From Phycisphaerales bacterium (GTDB taxonomy: Bacteria > Planctomycetota > Phycisphaerae > Phycisphaerales > UBA1924), in assembly GCA_040221175.1 (NCBI GenBank), contig JAVJVK010000013.1, positions 248,001 through 312,000 on the forward strand: a stretch of 64,000 bases of DNA. Reading direction: 5' to 3'. The notes beneath the pieces are model-generated. The model ran no database searches and was not told the DNA's origin. It saw only the letters and a program-made list of their open reading frames with translations. Shown here piece after piece: positions 10,662 through 64,000 of this stretch. Every line of letters begins with the position of its first letter. The stretch's first letter is position 1. Made by a program: the position numbers and the translations under genes.

Positions 10662-10710
10662 AACTGCCGCGATCAATTCCCCAACAAGCTCGCGGAGGGG
10701 AGGGCTCGAC

Positions 10711-11274: not shown

Positions 11275-11347
11275 GCACCGCCTTGGCCTATCCTGATTCG
11301 CACATGCCGCCCCGATCATGGGCGGCAATCGGGGGGAGATCGCGCCC

Positions 11348-13036: not shown

Positions 13037-13071
13037 GCGATCTTGAACCCATGACGGAAGGACCTCATCGC

Positions 13072-14840: not shown

Positions 14841-14919
14841 GCGCGGGCTCATCGCGGGCGAACGCTTGGCCCGACGCCCATAGCATTGGGCTGCCCGGAT
14901 ACAGAAGGGAGGCCCCACG

Positions 14920-15603: not shown

Positions 15604-15623
15604 GCTCCGAAACGAGAAGTGAG

Positions 15624-17423
<1,800 letters not shown>

Positions 17424-44177: not shown

Positions 44178-44798
44178 ATGCGTACGAAGAGCATCATCAC
44201 CCTGGCCGCCGGCTCGCTGGCGATCGCCGCCCTCTCGGCCTGCTCGGGCAACGGCGAGGCCGATGGATCGAGCGCGACTGATTCGAGCGCGACCCAGCAG
44301 GAGAGCAGCATGACCCAGACCGACTCCACGGCGCCCAGCGTTCGCGGCGCGAGCTTCCAGATGGCCGACGGCACGCAAGCCAGCATGGACGACTACCAGG
44401 GCCAGGTCGTGCTGGTGGTCAACGTCGCCAGCGCGTGCGGCCTGCGCCCGCAGGTGGCCGAGCTCGAGACGCTCTACGAGAAGAACAAGGCCAAGGGCTT
44501 CACCGTCATCGCCTTCCCCAGCGCGAGCTTCAATCAAGAGCCGCTGGATGCCGAAGGCGCCGCCGACTTCTGCCAGGCCCAGGGCGCGACGTATCCCGTG
44601 GCCGCCAAGGTCGACGTGAAGGGCCAGAGCGCCCACCCGCTGTTCGCCACGCTCAGCAAGCAGGGCGGCGAGCCGGACTGGAACTACACCAAGTACCTGG
44701 TGGGAAAGGACGGCCGCGTCATCGCCCGCTTCGCCCCGCGCACCAGCCCGACGAGCGCGGAGGTCCAGTCGGCGATCGACGCGGCGCTGCGGGGCTGA
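44178..44798 (+). CDS. Glutathione-peroxidase-like lipoprotein
   Basis: 206 residues after GGAGG. A lipoprotein signal (MRTKSIITLAAGSLAIAALS, then AC, with lipid Cys 22) and a 30-residue Ser/Thr-rich linker precede a peroxidase domain. The peroxidatic Cys is in VVNVASACGLRPQ (87) and the structural WNYTKYLV tryptophan (168) is kept. The motif that normally reads FPCNQFGGQEP is here FPSASFNQEP (113-122): both the resolving Cys and the catalytic-tetrad Gln are replaced. A Cys at 132 (ADFCQAQ) might serve instead. It should reduce peroxides at the membrane using a thioredoxin-like donor; activity is uncertain for the reason given. Confidence 0.83.
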   Translation: MRTKSIITLAAGSLAIAALSACSGNGEADGSSATDSSATQQESSMTQTDSTAPSVRGASFQMADGTQASMDDYQGQVVLVVNVASACGLRPQVAELETLYEKNKAKGFTVIAFPSASFNQEPLDAEGAADFCQAQGATYPVAAKVDVKGQSAHPLFATLSKQGGEPDWNYTKYLVGKDGRVIARFAPRTSPTSAEVQSAIDAALRG

Positions 44799-44890
44799 GA
44801 CAGGCCCGAACTAGCCTTGTGATGGCGCGGATCTTCGGGTATATTGGCCTCGCACCGCCGCCCGTCGTGGCTGGAGTGAGGGAGAGGCCG

Positions 44891-48648: not shown

Positions 48649-49839
48649 ATGCCCACCTTCCGCTACCAGGCCGTCGACGCGAACGGGCAGGCCGTTGTTG
48701 GCACGCTCGCGGGCGCCAGCGAGGCGGCGATCCTGGGCGAGCTGGCCGAGCGGAGCCTGGTGCCCGTCGAGGTCACCGCCCAGAAGCCCAAGGCGTCGTT
48801 CCGACGCAAGGGCCTGGGCCCGCGGCAGCTCGCCACGGCCTACCAGCAGGTGGCCGACCTCTTGCGCGCGGGCGTGCCGCTGATGCGGGCCATCACGCTG
48901 CTGGCCCGCGGCAAGAGCAAGCCGCGAAGGGCCGAGATCTTCCGCCAGCTGGCCGAGGGGGTCAGCCGGGGCGAAGAACTCGCCGACGCCATGGCCGCCC
49001 AGGAGGGGGTGTTTCCGCAGACCCACATCGCCATGGTGCGGGCCGGGGAGAAGGGCGGGAGCCTGGAGCCGGTCTTGGTGCGCCTGGCGGGCATGGTCAA
49101 GGCCCAGGCCGAGATGCGGGCCAAGCTGTTCGGGGCCCTGGCGTACCCGGCGGTGCTGGTGTTCGTGGGTGTGGGCGTGCTGGGGCTGATCTTTGGTTTG
49201 TTCCTGCCCATGTTCGGCGACGTGCTCGAGCAGGTCGACCCCATGCCGCCCATCACCGTGGCCCTGTTCGCCATCAGCGCGGCGGTGACCAGCAAGGGGC
49301 CGATCACCGCCATCGTGCTGGGCGTGCTGGGGTTCATCGCCTGGCGGCTGAGCAAGCGGCCGGACGTGAGCCGGGCCATCGCCGTGGCCAAGACGCGGGC
49401 CCCGGTGCTGGGGCCGCTGGTGCGGTCGATCGCGGTGGCGCGGTTCTGCCGGACATTCGGGACGATGCTGGCCAACGGCGTGCCGGTCCTGGCCGCCATG
49501 CGCATCGCCGAGGACGCCGCGGGCAACGTGCTCCTGAAGGAAGCCGTGGCCCGGGCGAGCGAGGCGGTGAAGGCGGGCGAGCCCCTCGCCGGGCCGCTGG
49601 GCGTGAGCGGGCTGTTCGACGAGGACGTGATCGAGATGATCTCGGTGGGCGAGAGCGCCAACAACCTGGCCGATGTGCTGGAAACGATCGCCGAGACGAT
49701 CGAGACGCGGGTCGAGCGGCTGCTGTCGACCGCGGTGGCGCTGGTGGGGCCCATGATGCTGCTGGGGCTGGCGGTGGTGGTGGCCTTTGTGGCTATCGGA
49801 CTGATCTTGCCGATGCTGGAGCTCAGCGACGTGGGCTGA
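48649..49839 (+). CDS. gspF: Type II secretion inner-membrane protein GspF
   Basis: 396 residues, N-terminus MPTFRYQAVDANGQAVVGTL as in GspF/PilC. Two homologous GspF domains (about 62-185 and 265-390) each begin with a cytoplasmic helical bundle (LATAYQQVADLLRAGVPLMR; ARFCRTFGTMLANGVPVLAA) with the acidic Ca-site residues and end in membrane helices (YPAVLVFVGVGVLGLIFGLF; LVGPMMLLGLAVVVAFVAIG). It forms the inner-membrane platform that, with GspE ATPase, drives pseudopilus assembly. No gspE is found before or after it in the window. Three hairpins separate it from gspG. Confidence 0.93.
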   Translation: MPTFRYQAVDANGQAVVGTLAGASEAAILGELAERSLVPVEVTAQKPKASFRRKGLGPRQLATAYQQVADLLRAGVPLMRAITLLARGKSKPRRAEIFRQLAEGVSRGEELADAMAAQEGVFPQTHIAMVRAGEKGGSLEPVLVRLAGMVKAQAEMRAKLFGALAYPAVLVFVGVGVLGLIFGLFLPMFGDVLEQVDPMPPITVALFAISAAVTSKGPITAIVLGVLGFIAWRLSKRPDVSRAIAVAKTRAPVLGPLVRSIAVARFCRTFGTMLANGVPVLAAMRIAEDAAGNVLLKEAVARASEAVKAGEPLAGPLGVSGLFDEDVIEMISVGESANNLADVLETIAETIETRVERLLSTAVALVGPMMLLGLAVVVAFVAIGLILPMLELSDVG

Positions 49840-50001: not shown

Positions 50002-50529
50002 ATGCACACGACGACGGAGCGCCGCGAAGAAAATCGGAAGTCCATGGCTCGCAAGCGGTTGCAGCGGCGGGCCTTCTCGCTGATCGAGATCATGATCGTC
50101 CTGGCGATCATCGTCATGATCAGCGGGCTGGTGGGCTTCGCCCTGCTCAGCCGCCGCGACGAGGCCAAGGTGAACGAGGCGGAGATCAAGATCAACACCC
50201 TCAAGGGCGCCCTGCTGGACTTCAACCGCCGCTACGGCCGCTACCCGACCGAGGACGAGGGTCTGGCCGTGCTGTGGAGCAGTTCGACGGTCGACCCGGA
50301 GCTGGAAGACCAGTGGTCCGAGTCGGTCAGCGAGGCCATGCCCAACGACCCCTGGGGCAACCCGTGGGAGTACAACCCCGAGGGCCTGCGTCGCGAGGGG
50401 TACTACGACCTCTCGAGCAACGGCCCCGACGGCGAGCCGGAGACCGAGGACGACATCTACGCCTGGGACGAGGACGAGGACGGCATGGGCGGCAGCGAGG
50501 GCCTAGCGCCCCCGCCGCCGGCCGGCTGA
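50002..50529 (+). CDS. gspG: Major pseudopilin GspG
   Basis: 175 residues; a start at 50044 is an alternative. The type IV prepilin motif is RRAFSLIEIMIVLAIIVMIS, with Ala rather than the usual Gly before the cleavage point, and Glu at +5. The body matches GspG: RRYGRYPTEDEGLAVLW, the NDPWGNPWEYNPEG block, YYDLSSNGPDGEPETEDDIY, then a C-terminal acidic DEDEDGMGG loop likely to bind calcium. A proline tail is extra. It forms the shaft of the periplasmic pseudopilus. Confidence 0.93.
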   Translation: MHTTTERREENRKSMARKRLQRRAFSLIEIMIVLAIIVMISGLVGFALLSRRDEAKVNEAEIKINTLKGALLDFNRRYGRYPTEDEGLAVLWSSSTVDPELEDQWSESVSEAMPNDPWGNPWEYNPEGLRREGYYDLSSNGPDGEPETEDDIYAWDEDEDGMGGSEGLAPPPPAG

Positions 50530-50601: not shown

Positions 50602-51681
50602 ATGCACCGCCGTCGCGGCTTCACGCTCATCGAGGTGCTGGTGGCCCTCGGGCTGCTCGTGGTGATCACGTCGCTGGCCCTGCCGGTGGCGCTGACCAAC
50701 ACCCAGGCCGCCCGGGCCCGCACGGCCGAGCGCGTGCTGACGCTCTCGCCCGCCGTGGCGCGGGGCGAGGCCCAGCGCCGGGGCGTGCCCGTGGCGCTGG
50801 TGCTGGCGCCGACCGAGGACGGGCAGGGCCTGCGACTGCTCGTGGTCCGCGAGCCGCAGGCCGGCTCGGACGACGCCGCCGATCAGGCCGCCGACCCGCA
50901 GGACGTGACGACCTGGCCGGCGGTCGACCAGCCCAGGCAGCTGCCCGAGGGCACGCGGCTGTGGCGGGGCGACATGGACGAACTGGAGGCCTTCGAAGCG
51001 CGCCGCCAGCTGGACGCGGCCGCCGACGCCGGGAGCGACGGCGGCGACGCCATGCTCGATCGGGCCTTTGCCGAGCCCGCTGCGCCCATGGCCCCCGCGG
51101 GCGCGCTGGACGATCGTCCCGATGCGGTGACGCTGGCGTGGTACCTCAGCGATGGGTCGGCCGTGGCCGGTGACGCCACGGTGGTGCGGCTGGCCGACGG
51201 GCGCGTCGTTCGGGCGCGGATCGAGCCGCTGGTGGGCCGGCTGCTGTTTACCAGGGCGCCCGAACTGGAAGAGAGCGCGCAAGCGCAGGACCCGACCGAT
51301 GAGGACCCGGCCGATCCGAACCGGGCCCCCGCGGGCGAGTCGGACCCTGTCGACGGGCCGCCCATGGACGATGCGGGCAGCCCGGAGGGCAGGCCCGCGC
51401 CCGGCTTCGATCCGCTGGAGTTCGACGGGCCGCAGTTCGAGCAGCGCGCCTTCGATCGACCGGAATTCGACGAGCGTGCCTTCGACCCGCTGGAGTTCGA
51501 TCGGCCCGAGTTCAATCGGCCCGAGTTTGATCCGCTCGAGTTCGACCCCTTGGCGTTCGATCGGCTCGAATTCGATTCGCTGGAACCCGACGACCGCCGG
51601 GAGGGCGAGGATGCCTCCGGGCAGCCGCAAGAGAAGGACGGCGCCACGCGCACGAACCCGGAGCCGCCCCAACCGAGATAG
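50602..51681 (+). CDS. gspH: GspH-like minor pseudopilin with pentapeptide-repeat tail
   Basis: 359 residues after GGGGAGG. The prepilin motif is RRRGFTLIEVLVALGLLVVI with Gly before the cut and Glu at +5. A pilin-like beta region follows (VARGEAQRRGVPVALVLAPT ... LAWYLSDGSAVAGDATVVRL), then an acidic linker. Residues 269-328 are twelve perfect-length pentapeptides of form F-D/E-x-x-E/A (FDPLE, FDGPQ, FEQRA, FDRPE, ...), then a charged tail. Minor pseudopilins of this type are normally 150-200 residues, so the repeat tail is an addition. Assignment to GspH is from position and motif. Confidence 0.85.
   Translation: MHRRRGFTLIEVLVALGLLVVITSLALPVALTNTQAARARTAERVLTLSPAVARGEAQRRGVPVALVLAPTEDGQGLRLLVVREPQAGSDDAADQAADPQDVTTWPAVDQPRQLPEGTRLWRGDMDELEAFEARRQLDAAADAGSDGGDAMLDRAFAEPAAPMAPAGALDDRPDAVTLAWYLSDGSAVAGDATVVRLADGRVVRARIEPLVGRLLFTRAPELEESAQAQDPTDEDPADPNRAPAGESDPVDGPPMDDAGSPEGRPAPGFDPLEFDGPQFEQRAFDRPEFDERAFDPLEFDRPEFNRPEFDPLEFDPLAFDRLEFDSLEPDDRREGEDASGQPQEKDGATRTNPEPPQPR
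51406..51585 (+). repeat. 15-bp coding tandem repeat, twelve units, in gspH
   Basis: Consensus TTCGATCGGCCCGAG with the first five bases nearly invariant. Period 15 without an indel over 180 bp. The unit resembles the TTCGAA-headed units of array A in bases as well as order. It encodes the FDxxE pentapeptides. Confidence 0.93.
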
Positions 51682-52170
51682 ATGATGCGACCGAGCACGC
51701 GGCGGAGCCGCAGGCCAATCGAGCGACAGGGACGTCCACGCCCGCACCGGCGCGCGGGGTTCGTGCTGCTCGACCTCGTGCTGGCGCTGGCCATGTTCGT
51801 GGTGGGCGGGCTTGCCGTGCTCAGCCAGCTGGACTTCGGGGCCCGGCGGATCATCGACGCCGAGCAGCGCATGGGCGCCACCGGGGTGGCGCGCACGGCC
51901 CTGGGCCTGCTCGAGAGCGGGGCCATGAGCGACCGCGAGCTGACCGGGCCCGCCAGCGCGTGGGCCACGCCCGAGGGCGCCGCCGTCGGCGACGACGCGA
52001 TGGCCGAATGGATGTGCGAGGTGGACATCGAGCCCAGCGAGTGGCCGGGGCTTTCGCTGGCGACCGTGCGCGTGCGCCGGGCCGTCGTCGGCGCCGGGGC
52101 GGGCGAGGGGCCGGTGCTGGCCACGCTGCACCAGCTGGTGCCGACCGAGCCGGTGGGGGGTGGCCCATGA
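51682..52170 (+). CDS. gspI: GspI-like minor pseudopilin
   Basis: 162 residues, ATG directly after the gspH stop. The prepilin motif HRRAGFVLLDLVLALAMFVV has Gly before the cut and Asp in place of Glu at +5, as tolerated in some minor pseudopilins. The remainder is short with no recognised motif (AEWMCEVDIEPSEWPGLSLA). It overlaps gspJ by ATGA. Minor pseudopilins I-J-K cap the pseudopilus tip. Confidence 0.82.
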   Translation: MMRPSTRRSRRPIERQGRPRPHRRAGFVLLDLVLALAMFVVGGLAVLSQLDFGARRIIDAEQRMGATGVARTALGLLESGAMSDRELTGPASAWATPEGAAVGDDAMAEWMCEVDIEPSEWPGLSLATVRVRRAVVGAGAGEGPVLATLHQLVPTEPVGGGP

Positions 52171-52853
52171 CCGGTCTGCGGGCGCATCGCGGTGGCTTCA
52201 CGATGCTGGAGGTGATGGTCGCAATCGGGATCCTGGTGGTCCTGAGCGCGGCCCTGATCACGTTCACGTTCGGGCTTGCCGGTCGGCGGGACCGGCTGGT
52301 CCGCGAGGGCGAGCGTGCCGCGATGCTGGCGCGCGTGCTTGATCGGGTCGAGCGCATCGCCGCGACCGCGCCCGACCATGCCCGCCACGGCGACGACTGG
52401 CTGGAGCTGCGGGGCCGCGGCGTGTGGCCCGCGGTCGGGCGCGCGGGCGTGCCGGCCGGGCCCATGGACTTCACGGGCCGGCTGGCGTTTTCTGAGGACG
52501 CCGGCGAGCTGACGTGGACCGAGACGAATAGCCGGGGCGAGTCGGTGGAACTCGTGGTGACCGACGTGCAGGCCGTGCTGGTCGATCACTTCGACGACCT
52601 GGTGACCGCGTCGGACCGCCAGCCGCCGCTGCGCGTGTGCCTCTGGCTCGCGCCGGTCGGCGTCGCCCGGGCCCCGGCCGATCGCGAATCGAGCGAGATG
52701 CCGGCGCCCCAGCCCGAGATGGAAATGCCCGGGCTGGACGAGGCATTGCTGCCCGAGCGGCCCGCGGACGTGGCGTTCGTCGTGGCCGGGCCGATGGCCG
52801 GGATCGGGCAGAGCGGTCCTGACGAGGATGATCCGATGGGGGCGACCCCATGA
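52167..52853 (+). CDS. gspJ: GspJ-like minor pseudopilin
   Basis: 228 residues. Prepilin motif AHRGGFTMLEVMVAIGILVV. The mature protein has a beta-rich mid-part (WLELRGRGVWPAVGRAGVPA) and an acidic/proline tail (EMPAPQPEMEMPGLDEALLP) that is not usual. Overlaps by four bases at both ends with gspI and gspK. Identity as GspJ rests on order and length. Confidence 0.82.
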   Translation: MTGLRAHRGGFTMLEVMVAIGILVVLSAALITFTFGLAGRRDRLVREGERAAMLARVLDRVERIAATAPDHARHGDDWLELRGRGVWPAVGRAGVPAGPMDFTGRLAFSEDAGELTWTETNSRGESVELVVTDVQAVLVDHFDDLVTASDRQPPLRVCLWLAPVGVARAPADRESSEMPAPQPEMEMPGLDEALLPERPADVAFVVAGPMAGIGQSGPDEDDPMGATP

Positions 52854-54190
52854 AGCGTCGCATGAAGCGTGGTGCGCACGAGCGTGGGGTTGCGGTGCTG
52901 GTGGTGCTGGTGGTCATCGCCATCGGTGCCCTGGCGGGCACGGTGGCGCTGCTGGCGGCGCGAAGCGCGGGGGAGGCGGCGTCGGCGTCGGCCGGTCGGT
53001 TGCAGTCCCGGCTGACGATGCGTTCGGGCGTGCTGGCCGTCGAGCAGATGGCCATCGAGCAGCGGCAGGACGTGCTGGGCGGGGCGGACCTCGACGTGGA
53101 GGACCCCATCGAGTTGTTCGAGCGGGGCAACCAGACGGGGCTCTTCCGCCTCGATGCGACGATCACGCCCGACCCGGTGTCGCTGGATGCGCTGCTGGAC
53201 ATCAACACCTGCACCGCCGCGATGCTCGCCAGGCTGCCGGGCATGGACGAGACGCTCGGGGCCGCCGTCGCGGCGGCCCTGCCGGTTTCATCGCTGCGGG
53301 CTTTGCTGGACGTCGAGGGCCTGACGGTGGAGCAGGTCTACGGGGAATACGACCAGGACGGGCGGCTGGTCTCGGACGTGCCTCCTTTGGCCAGCCTGTT
53401 GACGGTGGGTTCGGCCGATCCGGCGGTGGCCATCGGCGTGGGCGGCGCGACCCCGCTGGCCGAGCGCGTGGACGTCTCCAGGGCCTACGAGGAAGCGATG
53501 GGCGACCGCCTGCGTGAGGCGCTGGGCGAGCAGCAGGGGGCGTCCCAGTTGATCGCCGTGCTGGAGCGGCGCGATGCGCCGCCGGCTTCGCTGGCCGAGG
53601 TTGCAAGGGCGTTGCGTGGGCAGATGACCCTTGCCACGTCCGGACAGGTGCTGGACGCGGTGTGCATCGGTGAAGCGCCCGCCCGGGGCCGCGTGGACAT
53701 CAATCGCGCGCCGGTGGAGGTGCTGGCGGCCCTGCCCGGGCTCGATCAGGAGAAGGCCCAACGGATCGTGGACGCCCGCCGCAGCCTCGATGAGGAAGCG
53801 TTGCGTGATCCCCTGTGGCCTCTGCGCGAGGGGGTGGTCGATGAGGGTTCCATGCTGGAGGTCCTCGACCGGGTCACGACCAGGAGCGTGCGGTGGGTGT
53901 TGCGTGCCGAGGCGGGCGTGGCGGTCGTGCGCGAGCGGTCGGTAGGCATCGATTCGCTGGAAGACGCCCAGCGGGTACGGGCGGGGATGGCCTCGGCCGA
54001 GGAAGATCGCCTGCGTGAGCGTGTGGCGATGGACCTGTTGGTCGACTTCTCGTCCGGGCGTCCGGTTGTTGTTCCGTTGGGAGAGGTCAGCATCGCCGGC
54101 GAACTTGCGGCGGTGGCGCGCACGCTGGCCGAGGCGGATGGATGGGCGGAGCTTCCCGGGGCGGCACGGGACGCGGGAGAAGGCCCATGA
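52850..54190 (+). CDS. gspK: GspK-like minor pseudopilin with helix-hairpin-helix parts
   Basis: 446 residues. The N-terminal segment RGVAVLVVLVVIAIGALAGT is the hydrophobic prepilin helix; Gly before Val replaces the usual GF. Two helix-hairpin-helix-like segments (LDINTCTAAMLARLPGM; VDINRAPVEVLAALPGLDQE) and a large alpha domain are characteristic of GspK, the tip pseudopilin. It overlaps gspL in ATGA. A C-terminal region (RVAMDLLVDFSSGRPVVVPL) is longer than in enterobacterial GspK. Confidence 0.88.
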   Translation: MKRRMKRGAHERGVAVLVVLVVIAIGALAGTVALLAARSAGEAASASAGRLQSRLTMRSGVLAVEQMAIEQRQDVLGGADLDVEDPIELFERGNQTGLFRLDATITPDPVSLDALLDINTCTAAMLARLPGMDETLGAAVAAALPVSSLRALLDVEGLTVEQVYGEYDQDGRLVSDVPPLASLLTVGSADPAVAIGVGGATPLAERVDVSRAYEEAMGDRLREALGEQQGASQLIAVLERRDAPPASLAEVARALRGQMTLATSGQVLDAVCIGEAPARGRVDINRAPVEVLAALPGLDQEKAQRIVDARRSLDEEALRDPLWPLREGVVDEGSMLEVLDRVTTRSVRWVLRAEAGVAVVRERSVGIDSLEDAQRVRAGMASAEEDRLRERVAMDLLVDFSSGRPVVVPLGEVSIAGELAAVARTLAEADGWAELPGAARDAGEGP

Positions 54191-55725
54191 GCGGCGCGCG
54201 GCTGGCAATGGAGTGGCACGCGGGTTGGCTGACCGCGGTGCTGGTGGGCACCGAGAAGGGGCGACCGAGGCTGGGGACGGGCCTGTGCGCGAAGCTGCCC
54301 GAGAGCGTGCCCAGCGGCGACGCCGAGGCCGTTGGCGCCTGGGTGGGCGAGCAACTCTCGCAGGCTGGCCTGAAGGGCAAGCAGGTGGCGTGGGTTGCCG
54401 GCCGCGGCGACTTGCTGCTGAAGCGGTTGAGCCTGCCCAAGCCGCCCAACGCCGGACAGATTCCGGCGATGGTGAAGCTGCAGATGAGCCGGGCGATGCC
54501 GGTCCAGGGCTCGGATGCCTGCACCGACTTCGTGGTGTTGCGCGACGAGGACGGCCACCTGGACCTGCTGGGCGCATCGGTGCCCGCCGAGCGGCTTTCC
54601 TGGATGCGGACGATGCTGTCGGGCGCCAAGCTGAAGCTCGGCTCGGTCGTGCTGCGGGCGCAATGCTCGGCGTGCATTGCCGGGCTGCCCGATGCGGGGC
54701 ACGCGCGGATCGTGGTGTCTCCGGGCGCCTCGTCGGTGGAGATCGCGGTGGTCGAGCCGGGCGGGGTGGTGACCAGCCGCGGCGTGGATGCGACGTGGCC
54801 CGCGGGCGAGCAGGAGGGCTTCGTCCGCCGGATCTCGGTGGAAGTGAAGCGGACGTGGATGGGCTATCGCGCTGCCCAGAATTCTCTGCCGGTGCAGGAT
54901 GCGGTGGTCATCGGTGGCAGCGCGTTGTGCGCGTCGATCGCTGAGGCGGTGGGCGAAGCGATCGAGGTCGAGGCGACGACGGCGCCCGTCGACTCGTTCG
55001 CGGTCCGCGGCGACCCGGACGGCGTCGATCCAACGCGCTGGCTGGCGCTCTGCGGCATCGCGGTGTCGGCCTGCGACCGGATCGACCTGCTGAACCCCAC
55101 GCGCGCCAAGGCTGAGCGATCGCGGACGCGGGAGCGGGCGTTGCTGGGCGCGATGGCGGCGATCGCCGTCGCCGGTGGCCTTGGCGTGTATGGCTACATC
55201 CGGCTGGGGGATCTGGAGCGAGAGAAGTCTCGCCTGAGCGGGCAAGTCTCCAAGCTGCGCGATGATTACACGGCGCTGGTGCTGGACCGAACGCGGCTGC
55301 AGCACCTGCAGGCGCTGCGCGAGACCAGGCCGCAGTGGCCCGGGCACCTGGAGCGCGTGATGCAGCACGCGGCGGCGTCGGGTGTTCGCATCGAGCAGTT
55401 GTCGGGCGCCTCTCGTGGCGGCGTGTGGTTCGGCGACCCCAAGGGCTCGCGGAGCTATTCGTTTACGGCAGCGGAGTATCGCCCGGCCGTGCGTGGCGAG
55501 TTGAGCCTCCAGGGCGTGGGCGAGCATCGCGAGATGGCCGGCATTGTGCGAGGGCGTCTGGTCGACGATCCGCTGTATCTGGTGCAGACCCAGGGGCCCG
55601 ACGCGGGCCTGAGCTTCAAGCTCGAGGTCGATACGAGCACGCGCGTGGTGCCCGAGGGCGATGCAGATGCCGGCCAGTCCGCCCAGGGCGATCAATCCGA
55701 TGCAGGTGAAGGGGGTGGCGCATGA
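54187..55725 (+). CDS. gspL: GspL/PilM-like assembly protein
   Basis: 512 residues. An actin-like cytoplasmic domain (1-300) has a PilM/GspL-type core (KRLSLPKPPNAGQIPAMVKL, ARIVVSPGASSVEIAVVEPG, QDAVVIGGSALCASIAEAVG), one membrane helix (about 318-338, LLGAMAAIAVAGGLGVYGYI), a coiled-coil stalk and a periplasmic ferredoxin-like domain (LERVMQHAAASGVRIEQLSG ...). It should recruit the GspE ATPase to the platform. Overlaps both neighbours by four bases. Confidence 0.85.
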   Translation: MSGARLAMEWHAGWLTAVLVGTEKGRPRLGTGLCAKLPESVPSGDAEAVGAWVGEQLSQAGLKGKQVAWVAGRGDLLLKRLSLPKPPNAGQIPAMVKLQMSRAMPVQGSDACTDFVVLRDEDGHLDLLGASVPAERLSWMRTMLSGAKLKLGSVVLRAQCSACIAGLPDAGHARIVVSPGASSVEIAVVEPGGVVTSRGVDATWPAGEQEGFVRRISVEVKRTWMGYRAAQNSLPVQDAVVIGGSALCASIAEAVGEAIEVEATTAPVDSFAVRGDPDGVDPTRWLALCGIAVSACDRIDLLNPTRAKAERSRTRERALLGAMAAIAVAGGLGVYGYIRLGDLEREKSRLSGQVSKLRDDYTALVLDRTRLQHLQALRETRPQWPGHLERVMQHAAASGVRIEQLSGASRGGVWFGDPKGSRSYSFTAAEYRPAVRGELSLQGVGEHREMAGIVRGRLVDDPLYLVQTQGPDAGLSFKLEVDTSTRVVPEGDADAGQSAQGDQSDAGEGGGA

Positions 55726-56729
55726 ACCCCCGCCTGACCCGATTGCTTGCGGCGTGCGGCGGCGCAGTTGTGCTGGCTGGTGGTGGCTGGTGGGCGTATG
55801 CCTCGCTCTACGAAGCGCCGGCCGCGGCGCTGCGAGACGACATCGACGCATTGATCGCCGAGAAGAGTGCGTACGAGACGGCGTTGCTCCAGGAGAGCCG
55901 CGTGCGACGCGAACTCGACGAGATCATCGCGGGCGCGGTGCAGGGCAATCGCGAGTCGCTTGAACATCGCTTGCGAACGGCAAGTGCGACGCTGGCCTTC
56001 GAGGCCGGGCTGACCCGGCTGGAGGTCAATTCGCTGCCGCCACGGGCTCTGGGCAACCCGGCGGGGCAGGCGCGGGGCATCAAGGAGCGGTCGTTCCAGC
56101 GGACGCTGCGCGATCGCGTCGACGCGAGCGAGTCGCGCGTGGTGATCTCGGGCGAGGGCACGCTGGAGGCGGTGTTGCGAGCCCTGGCCCTGGCCGATGC
56201 ACAGCGTTGGACGCTGGGCGTAGACAGTTGGACGATCAAGCCCGCGCGCATCGAAGAGGGCAAGCCGGCCGTGTTCTCGCTCTCGATGACGCTGACGGCG
56301 CTCGTCGTCGACGACGAGGGATCGCTTGCGGGTGAGATTCCGGTCGATCCGCTGGACGATCGGGTGCTGGCACAGCTGATGTCGACGGTGGAGACCGACC
56401 CGTTCCGCACGGCGGTCAAGCCCGAACCGGTTGTGGCGCAGGCGCCGCCCCCGCCCCCGCCGCCCAAGCAGGAGCAAACGGCTCCGCCGCCTCCGCCGCC
56501 GGGGGCGGGCTGGCGTCTTGCGGGCGTGCTGCGCGGGCAGACCGGGCAGTACGCCATCGTCGTGCACGAGAGTGGCCGTCGACGGACGCTCGCGCTGGGG
56601 GAAGAAGTGGGCGGGCTTCGGCTTGCCGACGTGCTGGGAGAGGTGGCCACGTTCGAGGCCAACGAAGAGCGATTCGAGGTGCGCAACGGCGAGCTTCTGG
56701 CAGCCGCGCGCGGAAGGGAACGGCGATGA
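55722..56729 (+). CDS. gspM: GspM-like protein with C-terminal GspC-type domain
   Basis: 335 residues. A single N-terminal membrane helix (LLAACGGAVVLAGGGWWAYA), a coiled coil, and a periplasmic ferredoxin-like part (ESRVVISGEGTLEAVLRALA) fit GspM. After a polyproline linker (residues about 243-262) a small beta domain (GWRLAGVLRGQTGQYAIVVH ... TLALGEEVGGLRLADVLGEV) resembles the HR domain of GspC that touches the secretin N0 domain. If right, GspM and GspC functions are fused. Translation is coupled to the secretin gene by an ATGA overlap. Confidence 0.75.
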   Translation: MNPRLTRLLAACGGAVVLAGGGWWAYASLYEAPAAALRDDIDALIAEKSAYETALLQESRVRRELDEIIAGAVQGNRESLEHRLRTASATLAFEAGLTRLEVNSLPPRALGNPAGQARGIKERSFQRTLRDRVDASESRVVISGEGTLEAVLRALALADAQRWTLGVDSWTIKPARIEEGKPAVFSLSMTLTALVVDDEGSLAGEIPVDPLDDRVLAQLMSTVETDPFRTAVKPEPVVAQAPPPPPPPKQEQTAPPPPPPGAGWRLAGVLRGQTGQYAIVVHESGRRRTLALGEEVGGLRLADVLGEVATFEANEERFEVRNGELLAAARGRERR

Positions 56730-56806
56730 CCGTACACGCACTACAGGTACCCGAGAACTCGGACGCGCCGCGGCGCACCAACTCGAAGGCGAAGGGAGAC
56801 GCTCGC

Positions 56807-59800
56807 ATGGGCGCAATGGTCAAGGGACACGTGGCGGCGGCCATGGTGCTGTCGTGCGGTCTGGCGATGAGCGTGCAGGCTGCCCAGGAGCAGGCATCGG
56901 GCGCGGCGTTGGCCGAAGCGCCGCCGGCCGACCCGCCCGCGGCTGCCGAAGAGCGCGCGAACACACCGATCAGCTTCAGCTTCGAGAACGCACCGTATTC
57001 GGAGGTGCTGGGCTTCTTTTCGCGTGAGGCGGGCGTGCCGATCATCTATCAGGCGCCGGTTCCCGAGCAGGGGATGACGTTCATCAGCGGGGAGTCGTAC
57101 TCGTTCGAGACGGCGCTGGACATCCTGAACCGGTTCCTGCTTCCGCACAAGACGTGGCTGAGCCAGCAGGGCGAGTACCTGTATTACCGGTCGATCGCGG
57201 ACGCTGCCCGCCAGCCGGGCGACATCTTCCAGGGCGAGTTGCCAGGCCAGGTTCGCGACGGCGCGATCGTGACGCTCGCGATTCCGCTGACCAACGTGGA
57301 CGCGGCGGCCGTGGCCGAGCAACTCAAGGGCATGGTGGCGGCGTACGGCTCGCTGGTGCCGGTGACCTCGCAGAACCTGCTGGTGGTGACCGAGACGGGC
57401 GAGCAGATCCGCCGGATTCGCGAGGTCGTGCGCCTGGTCGACAGCCAGCCGCCCAGCGATTCGGACTATCGGGTGTATCCGCTGCGCAATGCGCAGGTGA
57501 ACGACGTCATCGCGACGCTGCGGACGCTGGTGCCCGAGTACGAGAAGACGATCGTCAAGAACGGCAACCGCCAGGAAGTCGTCGACGACGTGACCAAGCC
57601 GCCGGTGCGTTTCCAGGCCAATGACCGCTCGAACTCGATCATCGCGATCGGTCCGACGCGGCGGCTGGAGACGGCGGCGCAGCTCATCGAGATGCTCGAT
57701 CAAGCCGACGACGGCGGCGTCGACGGGCGGCGGATGGCGAGCTTCGTGCTCGAGAGCGTGACGCCCCAGGATGCGGCGCGTCAACTGGATCGTTTGTTCT
57801 CCAGCGTGCCCAATGATCGCCGGCCGACGGTCATCCCCATGGAGACCCAGGGCAAGATCACGGTCGTCGGCAGCGCGTCGCTGGTCATGCAGGCCGAGGC
57901 GCTGCTGGGCGAACTCGATCCCGGGCTGGATGATCGCAAGGACGAGGCCAACCGCACAACGGTCGTCGAACTGACGAAGACCGATGCCATGTCGATGGAG
58001 CGGATGGTGGGCCGGTTGCTCTCGCCTCGCCAGCAGCAGGTACTGCGATTCGCCCCGCTTGCGGGTGGCCGATCCCTCATGGTGACGGGGCCGGCGGCGG
58101 ACGTCGAAGCGTTCGAAGAGTTGGCGCGAACGCTCGACAGCGGCCAGGCCATCGCGAGAGACGTGCGCACGCTCTCGGTGAACCGGGGAGATCCCGAGGC
58201 CGTGGTCGATCGCGCGTTGGAGCTCTACGAGCTGAGCGGGATGGAAGAGCGTGAGCCGCTGGTCGTCGACGTCGACGCGGCCCGGCGGACGGTGACGGTG
58301 GTGGGCCAGCGTGAGGGGCTTGACAAGTTCGTCGAGTTCATGCGTCAGAGCGAGGCAGGAGTCGTGGTGCAGCGCGAGTCGCGCACGTACACCATGGCGT
58401 CGACCAAACCCAGCCAGGTGGCCCAGCGTGCGCAGCGCGTGGTCGAGGCGATGCTGCGGCCGGCGGATGGCTCCGCGTACGAGGCGCCACAGTTCGAGGC
58501 CATCGACGAGGTGAATCAGCTCATCGTGCGGGCGGGCGAGGGCCAGTTCTCGGTGATCGAAGCGGTCATCGCGCAGCTCGACAAGCCCGCCGGACAATCG
58601 CGGTTCGTGACGGTGCCTGTACGCAACGCCACGCCGCAGCAGTTGCTCGATCGCGTGCAACCGGTATACGAGGCCGAGGCTGCACGGCGGGAAGATCCGT
58701 CGCTCAACGACATCTCGCTGACGCCCGATGCGGCGGCCGGCGCGATCATCGCACAGGGATCTGCTTCGGCCGTTGCCTTGTTCCAGGAGGTGCTGCAGCA
58801 GGTTCAACAACTCGTGCCGCCGGCACGGACCACGAAGATGCTGGACTTGGAGTTTGCCAGCGCCGATCAGGTGCTGCCGACGCTGCAGGGACTGATCGAG
58901 GGCCGTGAGCCGGTGGATCCTTCGCGCGAGGCGCCTGCACCGGAGATCAGCGTGCTGGAGCGAACCAACACGCTGGTGGTGAAGGCCGAGCCCGCGCAGC
59001 ATGCGATGGTGGCCGAACTGGTGGCGCGACTCGACACGCCCGAGCCGATGGACCTGCCGCCGCTGAAGCTGCTGCAATTGCGCACGGCCAACGCCGGCAA
59101 CATCGCGCGGATGTTGAATGATCAGTACCGCCAGCGTCCGCAGGCCGACCGCATCGCGCGGCCGGTGGACGTGCGTGCCGACGAGGCAACCAACACGCTG
59201 ATCGTGTCGGCGCACGAGGACCTGCTGGCGGATATCAAGTCGTTCGTGGACGAGATCAACGAAGAGAGCCAGCAGGGGCCCGAGCGTGCGCCGCTGCTCT
59301 TCCGCCTGTCGGTGGCCAAGGCGACCGACGTGGCCGACGCGATGAATCGGTTGTATCCCGAGCCGGCGATCCCGCGTGATCGGCGTGGCCAGCCCATGCC
59401 GTGGCTGCAGCAGCCGCGAGAGGTGGTGGTGTCGGCCGATGAATCGAGCAACTCGCTGATTATCGATGCGCCGGTGGAAATGCACGAGTCGCTACGCGAA
59501 CTGGCGTCGCAGCTCGACCAGGTGGAGGTGCCGCCCAGCGCCGAGCTGCGAACCTATCGCGTGGTGAACGCGGACGTGACGACGATCAAGCGCGTGCTGG
59601 AGGGCATGGACCGCCAGGGCAACCTGAGTGCGCCGGCCCAGGCGGGGCGTCAGAGCGTACGGGTGACGATCGAGGCCGAGCCGCGCAGCGGAACGCTGAT
59701 CGTGGCGGGTGACACGGTCACGTTCGAGCGGGTCGAAGCGATGCTGGAAGACCTGTCGGCGGTGCCGGTGGAGCGTGAGACGGCAATCGTGCCGATCGCC

Positions 59801-62800
59801 AACGCCGATGCAAAGGAAGTGGGCGATCGGGCGCTGTCGATCTACCAGGCGCAGGTTGCTGGCGTGCCGGGGGCGGGCGAGGTTGAGTTGTCGATCAATG
59901 AGACGACCAACGCACTCGAGATCGTGGCCGATGCGCAGGCGATGGAGCGCTTCCTGGGCGTGATCGATCTGCTGCAGGATCAGGCCGGCCCGCCACGCGA
60001 GGCTCGGTTGATCCAGCTTCAGCAGGCCAAGGCTTCGGACGTGATCGTGTTCCTGCGCGACCTCGTTGGTTCGAGCAACTCGCTGCGCCAGCAGGGCGGA
60101 CCCGAGCCGGTGTTCGAGGCCATCGAGAGCACGAACTCGATCCTGGCTGCGGCGGTGCCGTCGCAGTTCGGCATCATTGAGCAGTTGGTTGCGGATCTCG
60201 ACCGCCAGCAATCGGCGGGCCGTCAGCCGTTGCGGATCTTGCGTCTCCGTACGACCGAGGCGGGCAACATCGCCGAGATGCTGCAAGAGAGCTACCAGCG
60301 CCGTACGCCCGAGGAGCGGGCGCGGCAGCCGGTGGACATCCGCGCCGACGCAGCGACCAACACGCTGCTGGTGTCGGCGCATCCGGAGATGATGCCCGAG
60401 ATCGAGTCGGTGGTCTCGCAGCTGAATGAGGCGCGGACGATCGACGACGAGGATCGCGAGATCCGCATCTTCCCTTTGCAGCACGCCCGGGCCGAGGAAC
60501 TCGCGCGGACCATCGACGAGATGTACCCCGAGCCCCCGATGCCGCGGGACTCGCGCGGTCGGCCGCGTCCGGACCTGCAGCAGCCCAAGGAAGTGGTCGT
60601 GCGGGCCAACCGCAGCACCAACGCGCTCATCGTGGATGCGCCGTCGCGGCGTCTTTCGGGATTCGAGCAGATCGTCAACTCGCTGGATCGGTCGGAACTG
60701 GACAGCGACGTCGTCGTCCGGACGTACCGCCCTCAACGGGCCGAGCCCCAGGCGATCGCCAACGCGATTCGGGAGTTGGCAGGCAGTGGCGCTTTGGGTG
60801 GCAGTCCGCGGACGCCGCTGAGCGTTTCGGTCGAGCCGGCCACGCGCACGCTGATCGTCAGCGGCCCGGCCGAGGCATTCGTGCAGGTCGAGTCGCTGTT
60901 GGCTGATCTGGACGGCTCGCCGGCTCGTCCGGAATCGACGGTCAAGCTCTACAAGCTGAAGCACGCCCGGGCCGATCGGCTGGAGCCCCTGCTGCGTGAT
61001 TTGCTGACTACGCGGTTGCGCGAGCAGCAGCAGGTCGAGGGCGGCCTGGGCGTGGCCGATGTCGCGTCGCTGCTGACGGTGAGCGCCGAGCCGGCGACGA
61101 ACACGCTGATTATCTCGGCGCCGCCCGTGGCGCAGGAGCTGGCGCAGAGCCTGGTCGATGCGTTGGACACCGACGAGGTTGGAGCCGCGGCTCCGGTGGT
61201 GCGCGTCGTTCCGCTGAGCTACGGCCGTTCTGATCAGATTGCGCCTCAGCTTGAGCGGGCGATCGACGGACTGGTACTGCCAAGCGTCGGCGACGTTCGC
61301 GTGAGTTCGGTGGGCGGCGCCAACGCCCTGATCCTGACCGGGTCGCAGAACGACCTGGAACTCGTCGGCACGCTGATTGATGATCTGGATACGCCGCCGT
61401 TCGATCCCGAATCGGTGGGGGTGCAGACGTTCGAGCTCCAGCACGCCGATGCCGAACGCGTAGGCCCGGTCATCGAGCGCTTGCTCGAGCAGCAGCGCGA
61501 GAGCAATCCTTTCATCTTGCGAGAGTTGATGCGGCGCGACCCCACGGCCGTCCAAGTGACGCCGGTACGTGTCGAGGTCGATAGCGGCACGAACGCGCTG
61601 CTGGTGAGCGGGCCGTCGAAGATGGTCGAGCTGGCCCGGGAGCTTATCGAGCGTTTGGATCGACCGTCGGCCGAGGCCGGGCGGACGCTGCTGACCTACA
61701 CGCCCTCGCGGGCCCAGCCACAGGCGCTGGTCGATGCGGTGTCGGGCGTTGCCGAGCAGACGATCGAACGCGATCGACAGGGCCTGGAGATCACCGCCGA
61801 TCCGAACACCGGGACGGTGCTGGTGGTCGGTGGTGAAGCGGCGGCGGTCAAGGCCGTCGAGCTTCTTCAGCGTTTCGATGATCGCGCGCCCGCGGCGCCG
61901 GTCGCCGACGTGACCGTGGTGTCGCTGCGCAATGCGTCGGCAACCAACGTAGCCCAGACCGTGGAATCGTTGTTGAACGATCGAGGTCGTTGGCCGGCCG
62001 AACTGGTGCGCGCCGAGCGGGCGGGCTTGGACGTGCCGCGTCCGACGGTACGCGCCGATGCGACCGCTAATCGCATTGTCATGAGCGTGCCCAGCGCGAT
62101 GATGCCTATGGCCGGCAAGCTGATCGAGGCGATGGACGCAGCGCCCGATGGCCAGGGCGAGCGCGGGGTTCGGCTCGTGCGCCTGACGCAGGGCGATGCG
62201 GACTCGGTCGCCAACGCCGTGCAGGATGCGTTACGCGCTGGGGTGCGTCCCGGGCAGCCCCAGCCGACGGTGCGTGCCGAAACGCGAAGCAACAGCATCG
62301 TCATCTCGGCTTCACAGTCGCAGATCGAAGAAGCCGTCGAGTTGATCAACCAGATGGACGTGCAGGTCGAGCCCGAGGCGGTGGGCGTGCTCACGCTGCG
62401 CCTGAAGCACACCCGGGCCGAGACGGTGGCGCCCATCCTCGAAACCATCCTGCAGCAGGAATCGGTCGTGGATCTGCTCCCCTGGTGGGCGGTCAGCGAC
62501 TTTGCCGCTCGCAACCCAGACCAGGCGGTGAAGCCGGCGATCCGCGTGATTCCCGAGCCGGGCAGCAACACCGTGGTGGTGGCGGCTCCGCGTCCGATGC
62601 TCGAACTGGCCCAGCAGGTGGTGGCCGAACTCGACACGGCCGAGAGCGCGGGCGATGGTGACCGCCGGATGGTCCGGTTGATTCCCCTGCGCAATGCCGA
62701 TGCGACGGAGGTCTCGCAGAACCTCTCGGGCGTGCTGAGCGATGAGGGCGGGGTCGAGCCTCCGACGATCCGAGTCGATCGTGGCAGCAACACGCTGATC

Positions 62801-64000
62801 GTTCGGGCTACGCAGTCTCAGATGGAGGAGATCGAAAGCCTGGCCCAGCAGATCGACTCTGCCACGCTGAGCAGCAGCCGGCAGATGCGGCTGATTCCCA
62901 TCGATCGCTCTCGCGGCGATGCGGCGATGGTGGCCCAGACCCTGCGTCAACTGCTCGAGCAGCAGGGCGGGGTGCGTGTGCAGGTCATCGGCGTCGATGA
63001 GTTGATGAAGGATGCCAAGAAGCCCGTGGGCCCCGGAAGTGCGCTCCCGCAGCGTCGAGACCCATTGCACGAGTCGGTTGCCGCGGCGGTGCTGGCCGGA
63101 ATCCAGGATGCGCAAGCCGAAGACTCTCAGCCGGCGACCGATGCCGAGCCTGAGCCGGCGTCTGAAGCCGTTGATGATCAGGCAGAAGCGGGTCCGACGG
63201 TGACGATCGCCGTGGATCCGGCGACGAACACGCTCGTGGTCGTCGGTTCGCCTCGCCTGACGGATCGGCTGGCGTCCTTGGCCGAGCAGATCCAGCAGCA
63301 GTTCCCGCAAGAGGCGACGCGGACGCGCGTGATCCGGCTGCCCAGCTCGGCCGACGCGAACGCGATCGCGCAGATCGTTCGCCAGACGGTGCAGCGTGTG
63401 GGCCGCGCGAGCACGGAGAACCCGTCGGGTTTTACCGGGCGCCCTGACGTTGTTCCCGACCCGATAGGCTCGTCGCTCATCGTCTGGGCCAACGACACCG
63501 ACTTCGAGGTGCTGGGCGAGTTGATCGCCGCGGTCTCGCGTCTGGAGGCCACCGAGTCCCTGACGCTGAAGATCTATCCCCTTGTGAACATCGACGCCGA
63601 CGATGCGGCCGATTCGATCAACGATCTCGTGAGTGCACAGCCCACGGGTCAGCAGGCGCGCCGGTTCCGGCGGCAGCAGACGCCGGCGCGCGCGAGCGAG
63701 TTGACGCTGCTCGGCCCCGATGGCCAGCGGGTGGAGGCATCGATCGATCCCGATACCGTCCGGGTGCTTGCCGATCCCAGTGGGACGCGGCTGGTCGTGA
63801 CGGCGCCGCGCGACGTGCTGCCCTTGATCGACTCGTTCGTGAGCCTGATCGACCAGAGCCCCTTAGCCGATCGGCTGTCGATCCGCCGGTACGAACTTGA
63901 TAACGCCGAGGCACAGCAGCTTTCTCGGGCGTTTGCGGACCTCTTTCGCGCGCAGCGTCGCGGTCCGGGTGGGAGTTCGATTCCAGAGCCAAGCTTCGTG
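56807..64000 (+). CDS. gspD: Giant secretin-like GspD with about 28 N-domain repeats (runs off window)
   Basis: A single frame open from 56726 to the last base. I place the start at the ATG 56807, which has AAGGGAGA 7 bp upstream and opens a signal peptide (MGAMVKGHVAAAMVLSCGLA, then MSVQA); the ATG at 56726 overlapping gspM would add 27 residues. At least 2,398 codons are present. After an alanine/proline linker an N0-type domain follows (about 52-130: ISFSFENAPYSEVLGFFSRE). Then come about 28 tandem domains of 65-95 residues, each with a first strand like VxLxxADAxxLAxxL and a second half like VxVxADxxTNTLIVSAxxxx followed by an LIxxLD helix: the secretin N/NolW fold. The pore domain and the VPLLGxIPxxGxLF motif are not reached. 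Usual GspD is 650-800 residues with three or four N domains. Frames on the opposite strand are shadows. Confidence 0.9.
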   Translation, partial: MGAMVKGHVAAAMVLSCGLAMSVQAAQEQASGAALAEAPPADPPAAAEERANTPISFSFENAPYSEVLGFFSREAGVPIIYQAPVPEQGMTFISGESYSFETALDILNRFLLPHKTWLSQQGEYLYYRSIADAARQPGDIFQGELPGQVRDGAIVTLAIPLTNVDAAAVAEQLKGMVAAYGSLVPVTSQNLLVVTETGEQIRRIREVVRLVDSQPPSDSDYRVYPLRNAQVNDVIATLRTLVPEYEKTIVKNGNRQEVVDDVTKPPVRFQANDRSNSIIAIGPTRRLETAAQLIEMLDQADDGGVDGRRMASFVLESVTPQDAARQLDRLFSSVPNDRRPTVIPMETQGKITVVGSASLVMQAEALLGELDPGLDDRKDEANRTTVVELTKTDAMSMERMVGRLLSPRQQQVLRFAPLAGGRSLMVTGPAADVEAFEELARTLDSGQAIARDVRTLSVNRGDPEAVVDRALELYELSGMEEREPLVVDVDAARRTVTVVGQREGLDKFVEFMRQSEAGVVVQRESRTYTMASTKPSQVAQRAQRVVEAMLRPADGSAYEAPQFEAIDEVNQLIVRAGEGQFSVIEAVIAQLDKPAGQSRFVTVPVRNATPQQLLDRVQPVYEAEAARREDPSLNDISLTPDAAAGAIIAQGSASAVALFQEVLQQVQQLVPPARTTKMLDLEFASADQVLPTLQGLIEGREPVDPSREAPAPEISVLERTNTLVVKAEPAQHAMVAELVARLDTPEPMDLPPLKLLQLRTANAGNIARMLNDQYRQRPQADRIARPVDVRADEATNTLIVSAHEDLLADIKSFVDEINEESQQGPERAPLLFRLSVAKATDVADAMNRLYPEPAIPRDRRGQPMPWLQQPREVVVSADESSNSLIIDAPVEMHESLRELASQLDQVEVPPSAELRTYRVVNADVTTIKRVLEGMDRQGNLSAPAQAGRQSVRVTIEAEPRSGTLIVAGDTVTFERVEAMLEDLSAVPVERETAIVPIANADAKEVGDRALSIYQAQVAGVPGAGEVELSINETTNALEIVADAQAMERFLGVIDLLQDQAGPPREARLIQLQQAKASDVIVFLRDLVGSSNSLRQQGGPEPVFEAIESTNSILAAAVPSQFGIIEQLVADLDRQQSAGRQPLRILRLRTTEAGNIAEMLQESYQRRTPEERARQPVDIRADAATNTLLVSAHPEMMPEIESVVSQLNEARTIDDEDREIRIFPLQHARAEELARTIDEMYPEPPMPRDSRGRPRPDLQQPKEVVVRANRSTNALIVDAPSRRLSGFEQIVNSLDRSELDSDVVVRTYRPQRAEPQAIANAIRELAGSGALGGSPRTPLSVSVEPATRTLIVSGPAEAFVQVESLLADLDGSPARPESTVKLYKLKHARADRLEPLLRDLLTTRLREQQQVEGGLGVADVASLLTVSAEPATNTLIISAPPVAQELAQSLVDALDTDEVGAAAPVVRVVPLSYGRSDQIAPQLERAIDGLVLPSVGDVRVSSVGGANALILTGSQNDLELVGTLIDDLDTPPFDPESVGVQTFELQHADAERVGPVIERLLEQQRESNPFILRELMRRDPTAVQVTPVRVEVDSGTNALLVSGPSKMVELARELIERLDRPSAEAGRTLLTYTPSRAQPQALVDAVSGVAEQTIERDRQGLEITADPNTGTVLVVGGEAAAVKAVELLQRFDDRAPAAPVADVTVVSLRNASATNVAQTVESLLNDRGRWPAELVRAERAGLDVPRPTVRADATANRIVMSVPSAMMPMAGKLIEAMDAAPDGQGERGVRLVRLTQGDADSVANAVQDALRAGVRPGQPQPTVRAETRSNSIVISASQSQIEEAVELINQMDVQVEPEAVGVLTLRLKHTRAETVAPILETILQQESVVDLLPWWAVSDFAARNPDQAVKPAIRVIPEPGSNTVVVAAPRPMLELAQQVVAELDTAESAGDGDRRMVRLIPLRNADATEVSQNLSGVLSDEGGVEPPTIRVDRGSNTLIVRATQSQMEEIESLAQQIDSATLSSSRQMRLIPIDRSRGDAAMVAQTLRQLLEQQGGVRVQVIGVDELMKDAKKPVGPGSALPQRRDPLHESVAAAVLAGIQDAQAEDSQPATDAEPEPASEAVDDQAEAGPTVTIAVDPATNTLVVVGSPRLTDRLASLAEQIQQQFPQEATRTRVIRLPSSADANAIAQIVRQTVQRVGRASTENPSGFTGRPDVVPDPIGSSLIVWANDTDFEVLGELIAAVSRLEATESLTLKIYPLVNIDADDAADSINDLVSAQPTGQQARRFRRQQTPARASELTLLGPDGQRVEASIDPDTVRVLADPSGTRLVVTAPRDVLPLIDSFVSLIDQSPLADRLSIRRYELDNAEAQQLSRAFADLFRAQRRGPGGSSIPEPSFV
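57266..64000 (+). repeat. Tandem secretin-N domain array in the giant gspD
   Basis: Approximate domain starts: 57266, 57464, 57731, 57950, 58157, 58370, 58598, 58829, 59060, 59282, 59540, 59768, 59996, 60224, 60452, 60704, 60929, 61187, 61409, 61676, 61898, 62156, 62384, 62657, 62876, 63311, 63551, 63857 (cut). Domain 25 holds a low-complexity insert (63010-63190, acidic/alanine-rich). Boundaries were set by eye from the strand and LD-helix motifs. Confidence 0.8.
59060..60928 (+). repeat. Duplicated three-domain block within gspD
   Basis: Domains 9-11 (from 59060) and 14-16 (from 60224) are far more alike than other pairs. Examples: LRTANAGNIARML with LRTTEAGNIAEML; RPVDVRADEATNTLIVSAHE with QPVDIRADAATNTLLVSAHP; LYPEPAIPRDRRGQP with MYPEPPMPRDSRGRP. 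The offset is about 1,164-1,170 bp (388-390 codons) across all three, as expected from one segmental duplication. Confidence 0.85.

Follow-up and report, generated by a model that had tools for sequence, protein, structure and literature searches.

The 64,000-nucleotide window analysed here (C13:248001-312000, from contig 13 of a Phycisphaerales bacterium genome of 3.44 Mb in 20 contigs) carries the 5' part of a giant gspD gene, placed directly after gspF-G-H-I-J-K-L-M, whose product joins an N0 domain, 50 contiguous secretin N domains and a secretin pore in one chain. By its pore, its N0, its N-domain fold and its operon, the protein is a member of the GspD-type secretin family, and it departs from the canonical N0-N1-N2-N3-pore architecture in having 50 ring-building domains instead of three. 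Our reading, with moderate confidence, is that of a type II secretion secretin whose periplasmic ring stack is enormously extended and would have N0 and the 50 ring-building domains piled on one another.

From the ATG at 56807, the frame runs for 2,398 codons without a stop to the window edge. Extension along the contig located the stop at C13:318600 (window coordinate 70600), approximately 6.6 kb past the edge, giving a product of 4,597 amino acids that closes with the secretin pore domain. An upstream ATG at 56726 forms an ATGA overlap with the gspM stop and, judging from this arrangement, is the likelier start; the product would then have 4,624 amino acids and 501 kDa before processing, with its sole cysteine, residue 44 of this longer form, within the signal-peptide region (signal peptides were called from a simple hydrophobicity score or by visual inspection). 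Of the six secretin pores in the genome, only that of the giant gspD sits in a frame longer than 1,236 codons. The original prediction, made from the window, had described a GspD-like protein with an open frame, a signal peptide, an N0-like start and approximately 28 N repeats, and had proposed extending the contig in search of the stop and the pore. The frame, its N0-like start, the repeats and the GspD-like identity were borne out, and the extension supplied both missing elements. The count was right for the window, which contains N domains 1–27 in full and the beginning of domain 28 (residues 2357–2431), and was too low for the whole protein because the window ends inside the array.

Analysis with family models indicated that the Pfam Secretin pore (PF00263) matches residues 4353–4518 (E-value 3e-45, 154.3 bits against a cut-off of 27.5), while Pfam Secretin_N matches 40 stretches with a summed 1237.6 bits. 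The best full-length family model is NCBIfam type_II_gspD (TIGR02517), with 1162.6 bits against a cut-off of 351.35, a sum over 26 stretches and thus inflated by the repeats; the PilQ and YscC models also exceed their cut-offs (347.6 against 284.35 and 309.9 against 238.45, respectively), and the full-length model alone does not separate the subfamilies. Weak Pfam matches to KH-domain families are also present, in keeping with a fold related to secretin N domains. A repeat-built profile, trained first on the domains that Pfam defines and afterwards on 1,553 domains of 41 loci, resolved the 50 contiguous N domains at residues 155–4288, between N0 and the pore; domain counts here come from this profile, which was made from these same proteins, at an independent E-value below 0.01 (below 1 for the colinearity comparison). 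Neighbouring hits are separated by 0–4 residues at 47 of the 49 gaps, with one gap of 7 residues, one of 17 and one overlap by 1. Some N domains carry long low-complexity inserts (domain 25, for example, has 145 residues), and the pairwise identity among the 50 domains averages 25%, with a maximum of 50% between domains 9 and 14. The N-terminal domain of the protein, taken alone, gave no Pfam N0 match; 9 of 12 homologous domains match type_II_gspD_N0, and a 12-member N0 profile matches the N0 of GspD and PilQ proteins in the PDB (XcpQ, LspD, PilQ) with E-values of 5e-6 to 2e-4.

An AlphaFold2 model of four consecutive domains (13–16), built from an alignment of 15 sequences, contains four beta-alpha-beta-beta-alpha units, with a predicted local distance difference test score (pLDDT) of 77.1 and a predicted template modelling score (pTM) of 0.34. 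The 34 Foldseek matches of this model with an E-value of at most 0.001, the best at 2.2e-9, all belong to secretins or to type II/III secretion entries, and VIA-align superposed it on XcpQ N012 with a Z of 10.4 and a deviation of 3.6 Å over 135 residues; the top matches of the two programs comprise GspD, XcpQ, PulD, PilQ and InvG. The predicted structure thus indicates that the N-domain unit has the secretin ring-building fold. Prediction of a four-domain slice, which had also been proposed with the original prediction, settled the fold of the unit and did not give the relative packing of units.

Comparison of the giant GspD with its relatives revealed that all 50 N domains have colinear reciprocal best matches in every one of five congeners, that 38 to 50 domains are colinear in eight other family members, and that loci of families f2 and f4 keep 24–41 colinear domains. 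Losses cut at domain borders, one locus (L026) being without domains 7–15 and 29–30 and another (L028) without domains 8–12. The nonsynonymous over synonymous substitution values (dN/dS) of the N region against the five congeners are 0.056/0.696, 0.130/0.926, 0.100/0.833, 0.147/0.863 and 0.228/0.799, with ratios of 0.08 to 0.29, indicating that the N region is under purifying selection, with a constraint that, by identity, is weaker than that on the pore. At the DNA level the repeats are divergent: the best match between them covers 163 bp at 70.6%, and the sole ungapped repeat of at least 40 nt found is one 45-nt pair at 82%. Giant frames also occur in single-contig genomes (G007, G033, G065, G122, G307 and G353).

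Within the class, the pore query reached at least 140 of 298 genomes among the matches listed, with frames of at least 2,300 codons in at least 78 of them and frames of 1,500–2,299 codons in at least 30. The 39 complete single-chain loci all have N0 and a pore and contain 30 to 62 N domains; loci were picked for long frames, and the domain ranges describe these chosen loci, not a random sample. The largest secretin frame met (L050 in G159, minus strand) has 6,169 codons and encodes N0, 62 N domains and a pore. Among the matches listed for a second class of the phylum (148 genomes), pore-query frames range from approximately 600 to 3,270 codons, and 14 chosen loci of other classes (L088-L101) contain 6–8 N domains (five loci), 8–12 (seven) or 28–29 (two). 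These loci share with the window protein a pore and more N domains than usual, but fewer N domains were detected in them. The lengthening therefore appears to be graded across the phylum, from 6 to 62 detected domains, and most extreme in the window's class among the genomes sampled. The two longest arrays outside it (L094 and L095, family f122), with frames of 3,269 and 3,270 codons and 29 and 28 N domains of rather even length, look like a separate large expansion.

The presence of a giant or expanded secretin tracks that of the operon's GspL. Among 121 genomes of the order, both were found in 47, the secretin only in 1, GspL only in 1 and neither in 72 (Fisher p 2.4e-31, uncorrected for kinship). 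Here the 48 expanded-secretin genomes are those with frames of at least 1,519 codons (frameshifts or a contig end account for two of them); the operon's GspL is likewise present in 48 genomes. Where the best pore match lies only in a conventional frame of 721–936 codons (14 genomes), the operon's GspL is missing from 13 of the 14.

All 12 loci examined in families f19 and f17 (9 complete, 3 truncated at contig ends) have a pore-less N-domain frame immediately preceding a shorter secretin. The first protein of the nine complete loci comprises N0 and 22–32 N domains; the second is a secretin of 1,518–1,908 codons with 12–16 N domains and no N0 hit. Both genomes of the genus g46 are split elsewhere, into 15 or 18 N domains followed by 24 N domains and the pore. 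A start resembling a signal peptide was seen in the second protein by score at seven loci (L063, L066-L069, L071 and L074) and by eye at L047, L048, L062 and L075. The complete split loci total 34–46 N domains, inside the single-chain range. The splits look genuine and would have arisen at two or more different places. Continuity of the chain is thus not needed, while the N0 part still comes first and the pore part after it, as a coaxial stack would permit. We set aside L060 (G019) as a three-piece split, because of the overlap between its three frames (24, 18 and 13 N domains) and the absence, by the score used, of a signal peptide from the later pieces; it probably reflects frameshifts in the assembly or a broken gene, and G019 was counted among the 48 expanded genomes despite these frames. 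Docking of the two parts by charge was also considered: L067, L068 and L069 combine a basic tail of the N0 part with an acidic start of the pore part, but in L066, L071 and L074 the charge of the pore part is neutral or positive, so such pairing is not general. A stand-alone protein of 2,669 amino acids with N0, 16 N domains and no pore is encoded in another class (L078 in G497, 8774-16780, minus strand), apart from gsp genes.

In the window's operon (Table 1), gspF and gspG are assigned with certainty by model matches, and gspH, gspI, gspJ, gspK and gspL by pilin motif, weak match or position. The gspM-like protein has no Pfam, NCBIfam or PDB sequence-profile match. Its AlphaFold2 model (pLDDT 81.9, pTM 0.50) aligns by VIA-align with PilO 2rjz_A at a Z of 11.0 over 96 residues. 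The best match of its small C-terminal beta domain is the GspC HR in complex with GspD, 3oss_C, at a Z of 8.5 and 2.2 Å over 62 of 65 residues, and the HR entries of PilP, GspB, LspC and PulC match the same domain at Z values of 5.8–7.9; this likeness is by fold only, as a Z of 7–8 is possible without kinship and the Foldseek E-value for 3oss_C is only 0.024. The predicted fold suggests that the gene likely joins a PilO/GspM-like and a GspC-HR/PilP-like domain in one chain. Both domain types are found in known systems with GspC or PilP and GspM or PilO as partners, but here they would lie in one protein, without a match at the sequence level. In known systems HR binds N0 (PMC10550240, available sections; title of 3oss). 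The GspC-HR-like domain encoded by the adjacent gene would thus give the array a likely anchor at one end, with the pore at the other.

In the mechanism we propose, N0 would be docked at the inner membrane to the GspC-HR-like domain that the preceding gspM-like gene encodes, every N domain would form one ring in a homo-oligomer of approximately 15 chains, the rings would stack coaxially as a tube from the inner to the outer membrane, and secreted proteins and the endopilus would pass inside. At 2.5–4 nm per ring, a height that is assumed rather than measured, 51 rings would extend for approximately 130–200 nm, and a 15-mer would have a mass of approximately 7.5 MDa. Such a long tube would suit a lineage with a deep periplasm, a match that the original prediction had suggested and that the present data neither establish nor contradict. 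A tube is the most economical reading because N0 lies at one end and the pore at the other, the linkers are short and the splits keep the order. A fuller picture is more tentative, and we regard it as possible but short of probable: a continuous striated tube of approximately 50 stacked rings with these dimensions, which lengthens or shortens in evolution as entire domains are gained or lost, which in some families consists of two separately exported segments set end to end, and which reads out the periplasm depth of each lineage. To our knowledge, such a tube would be the longest protein channel across a bacterial envelope.

Several observations weigh against a stacked type II secretin. The operon contains no gspE, and no T2SSE match was found on contig 13; the 14 T2SSE-type ATPase matches elsewhere in the genome include none beside the giant gspD operon, and we did not take a gspE in the operon as defining for the secretin itself. 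In the order, 72 of the 121 genomes have neither a giant or expanded secretin nor the operon's GspL. Array length varies within the window's family (39, 45 or 50 domains), and the range of 30–62 N domains across the class is a poor fit to one fixed periplasm width. Outside the families f1, f2 and f4, domain order is hardly kept: nine loci of the order or class have 7–12 colinear domains, and shuffles reach 7–11, so the arrays either diverged and were reshuffled or grew partly independently, and it is not a general rule that each domain has a role tied to its position; even so, the first domains of the two arrays are paired in at least L040 and L050. The packing of domains is not fixed in the four-domain model at its pTM of 0.34, and long multi-domain alignments have root mean square deviations of 14–45 Å. 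Crateriform structures were considered as a home of the machine and lack support: according to the available sections of PMC8882080, described Phycisphaeraceae have none, so the known planctomycete junctions of outer and inner membrane do not help.

The varying domain numbers and the packing absent from the model leave room for a tether or mesh. Only N0 and the last few N domains near the pore would then form rings, the rest being a flexible tether or a cross-linked mesh holding the channel in place at the inner membrane or peptidoglycan. The variation of the array by whole-domain blocks, its division into two proteins at some loci and the low-complexity inserts such as that of domain 25 would suit this arrangement, whereas linkers of 0–4 residues at nearly all gaps are too short for loose tethering, the ring-building fold is kept in each domain, and a pore-less N-array protein would need its own means of binding the secretin. 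We consider a tether or mesh unlikely, though plausible.

Quite unlikely, in our judgement, is a type IV pilus or uptake machine in place of an exporter, with a pilus, guided by the secretin, that takes up polymers into the periplasm, a role put forward for other planctomycetes. The resemblance of the GspC-HR-like domain to PilP as well, the closeness of the gspM-like domain to PilO and the sole, weak PilM-like match of GspL point in this direction, as do the pili-like fibres of Planctomycetia that the available text of PMC5394234 links to dextran uptake. Against it, GspG exceeds the type II equivalog cut-off, type_II_gspD is the best full model of the secretin, and the crateriform structures involved are absent in described Phycisphaeraceae, according to the sections of PMC8882080 at hand. 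We judge it decidedly improbable that cleavage of the exported precursor leaves the pore and a few N domains to act as an ordinary secretin and gives the freed N chain another job, for example as a surface or periplasmic polymer. Pore-less N-array proteins do exist as separate genes in f19, f17 and g46, and the L078 protein stands away from gsp genes, but N0, the inner-membrane docking domain, lies at the far array end in all 39 complete single-chain loci, and the two parts are adjacent and in order at split loci. An assembly or frame artefact, which the original prediction had raised, or a decaying gene is so improbable that it can be dismissed: repeat genes are prone to assembly errors and the three overlapping frames of the G019 gene most likely stem from frameshifts, but the divergent repeats, the purifying selection, the 50/50 colinearity in five other genomes and the giant frames in single-contig genomes contradict it.

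Textbook accounts show secretin N-modules as rings, of which a type II machine has three or four. The ring-building domains of one chain here number fifty, against six N rings in Thermus PilQ, the longest example in the papers cited. The N-module is described as superposed rings whose number depends on the machine, with N0 contacting inner-membrane partners (PMC10550240, available sections). Type II GspD proteins (PulD and XcpQ; PDB 5wln, 5wq7, 6hcg and 5mp2) have N0, ring-building N domains, a pore and a gsp operon in common with the window protein; however, they contain three N domains (N1–N3; same sections of PMC10550240) in chains of 624–657 residues (5wln_G, 5wq7_A and 6hcg_A), compared with 50 in 4,597–4,624 here. 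The N-module of Thermus thermophilus PilQ is lengthened as well, but this pilus and DNA-uptake secretin has 757 residues and six rings, N0–N5; the accessible parts of PMC5745081 describe its six stacked N rings as spanning most of a wide periplasm, and those of PMC4463427 give a channel of approximately 35 nm. An enlarged periplasm is reported for planctomycetes of another class (PMC5394234, available text). We found no description of such a giant secretin in the open-access full-text literature, preprints excluded and judged by title and abstract start, nor the discussion of expanded secretin N regions in planctomycetes to which the original prediction had alluded. With the giant secretin, it becomes possible to test how envelope machinery is adjusted to the depth of the periplasm, how export and oligomer assembly proceed for a chain of approximately 500 kDa, and whether a ring stack functions when its chain is cut. 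The graded series of 6 to 62 domains amounts to a natural length experiment, and the protein offers a molecular handle on the disputed, enlarged planctomycete periplasm.

Table 1. Giant gspD and the gsp genes preceding it (window coordinates)
Feature	Coordinates	Strand	Basis or remarks
gspF, inner-membrane platform protein	48649..49839	+	Pfam T2SSF, E 1.2e-50
gspG, major pseudopilin	50044..50529	+	NCBIfam typeII_sec_gspG, 99.6 bits against cut-off 88.85; Pfam T2SSG
gspH-like pseudopilin	50602..51681	+	Prepilin methylation motif; gspH model 29.6 bits, under cut-off 80
gspI-like	51682..52170	+	Position only; no Pfam or NCBIfam match; pilin-like N-terminus by eye
gspJ-like pseudopilin	52167..52853	+	Position; IV_pilin_GFxxxE 22.1 bits against cut-off 16.3
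gspK-like minor pseudopilin	52850..54190	+	T2SSK 23.2 bits, just under cut-off 24.2; HHH_3; T2SS_GspK below cut-off
gspL-like inner-membrane protein	54187..55725 (frame open from 54142)	+	Position; weak Amuc_1101 PilM-like match, E 0.0078; no Pfam match; co-occurs with giant secretin
gspM-like protein with C-terminal GspC-HR/PilP-like domain (residues ~260-323)	55722..56729	+	Predicted fold
Giant gspD, 5' part	56726..64000, continuing to 70600 on the contig; alternative start 56807	+	Signal peptide, N0, N1-N27 and part of N28 inside the window
N0 domain	56954..57256	+	Residues 50-150 of the 4,597-aa form; PDB profile matches
Tandem secretin N domains 1-28 (28 cut)	57269..64000	+	Domains 28-50 and pore beyond the window, 64000-70600

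Downstream of the giant gspD lies a frame of 177 amino acids without a Pfam match, followed by phosphate-transporter-like genes. Directly 3' of the giant gene (L010:1277-8156) are genes for a phosphate-binding-type PBP, two ABC permease-type proteins (the N-terminal portion of one shows weak WD40-like matches) and an ABC ATPase. Upstream of the operon, 44435-46783 on the plus strand encodes a large predicted secreted protein without a Pfam match, the C-terminal end of which consists of two short D-rich repeats and GCG, an appearance that we take to be dockerin-like. This product could be a secreted substrate.
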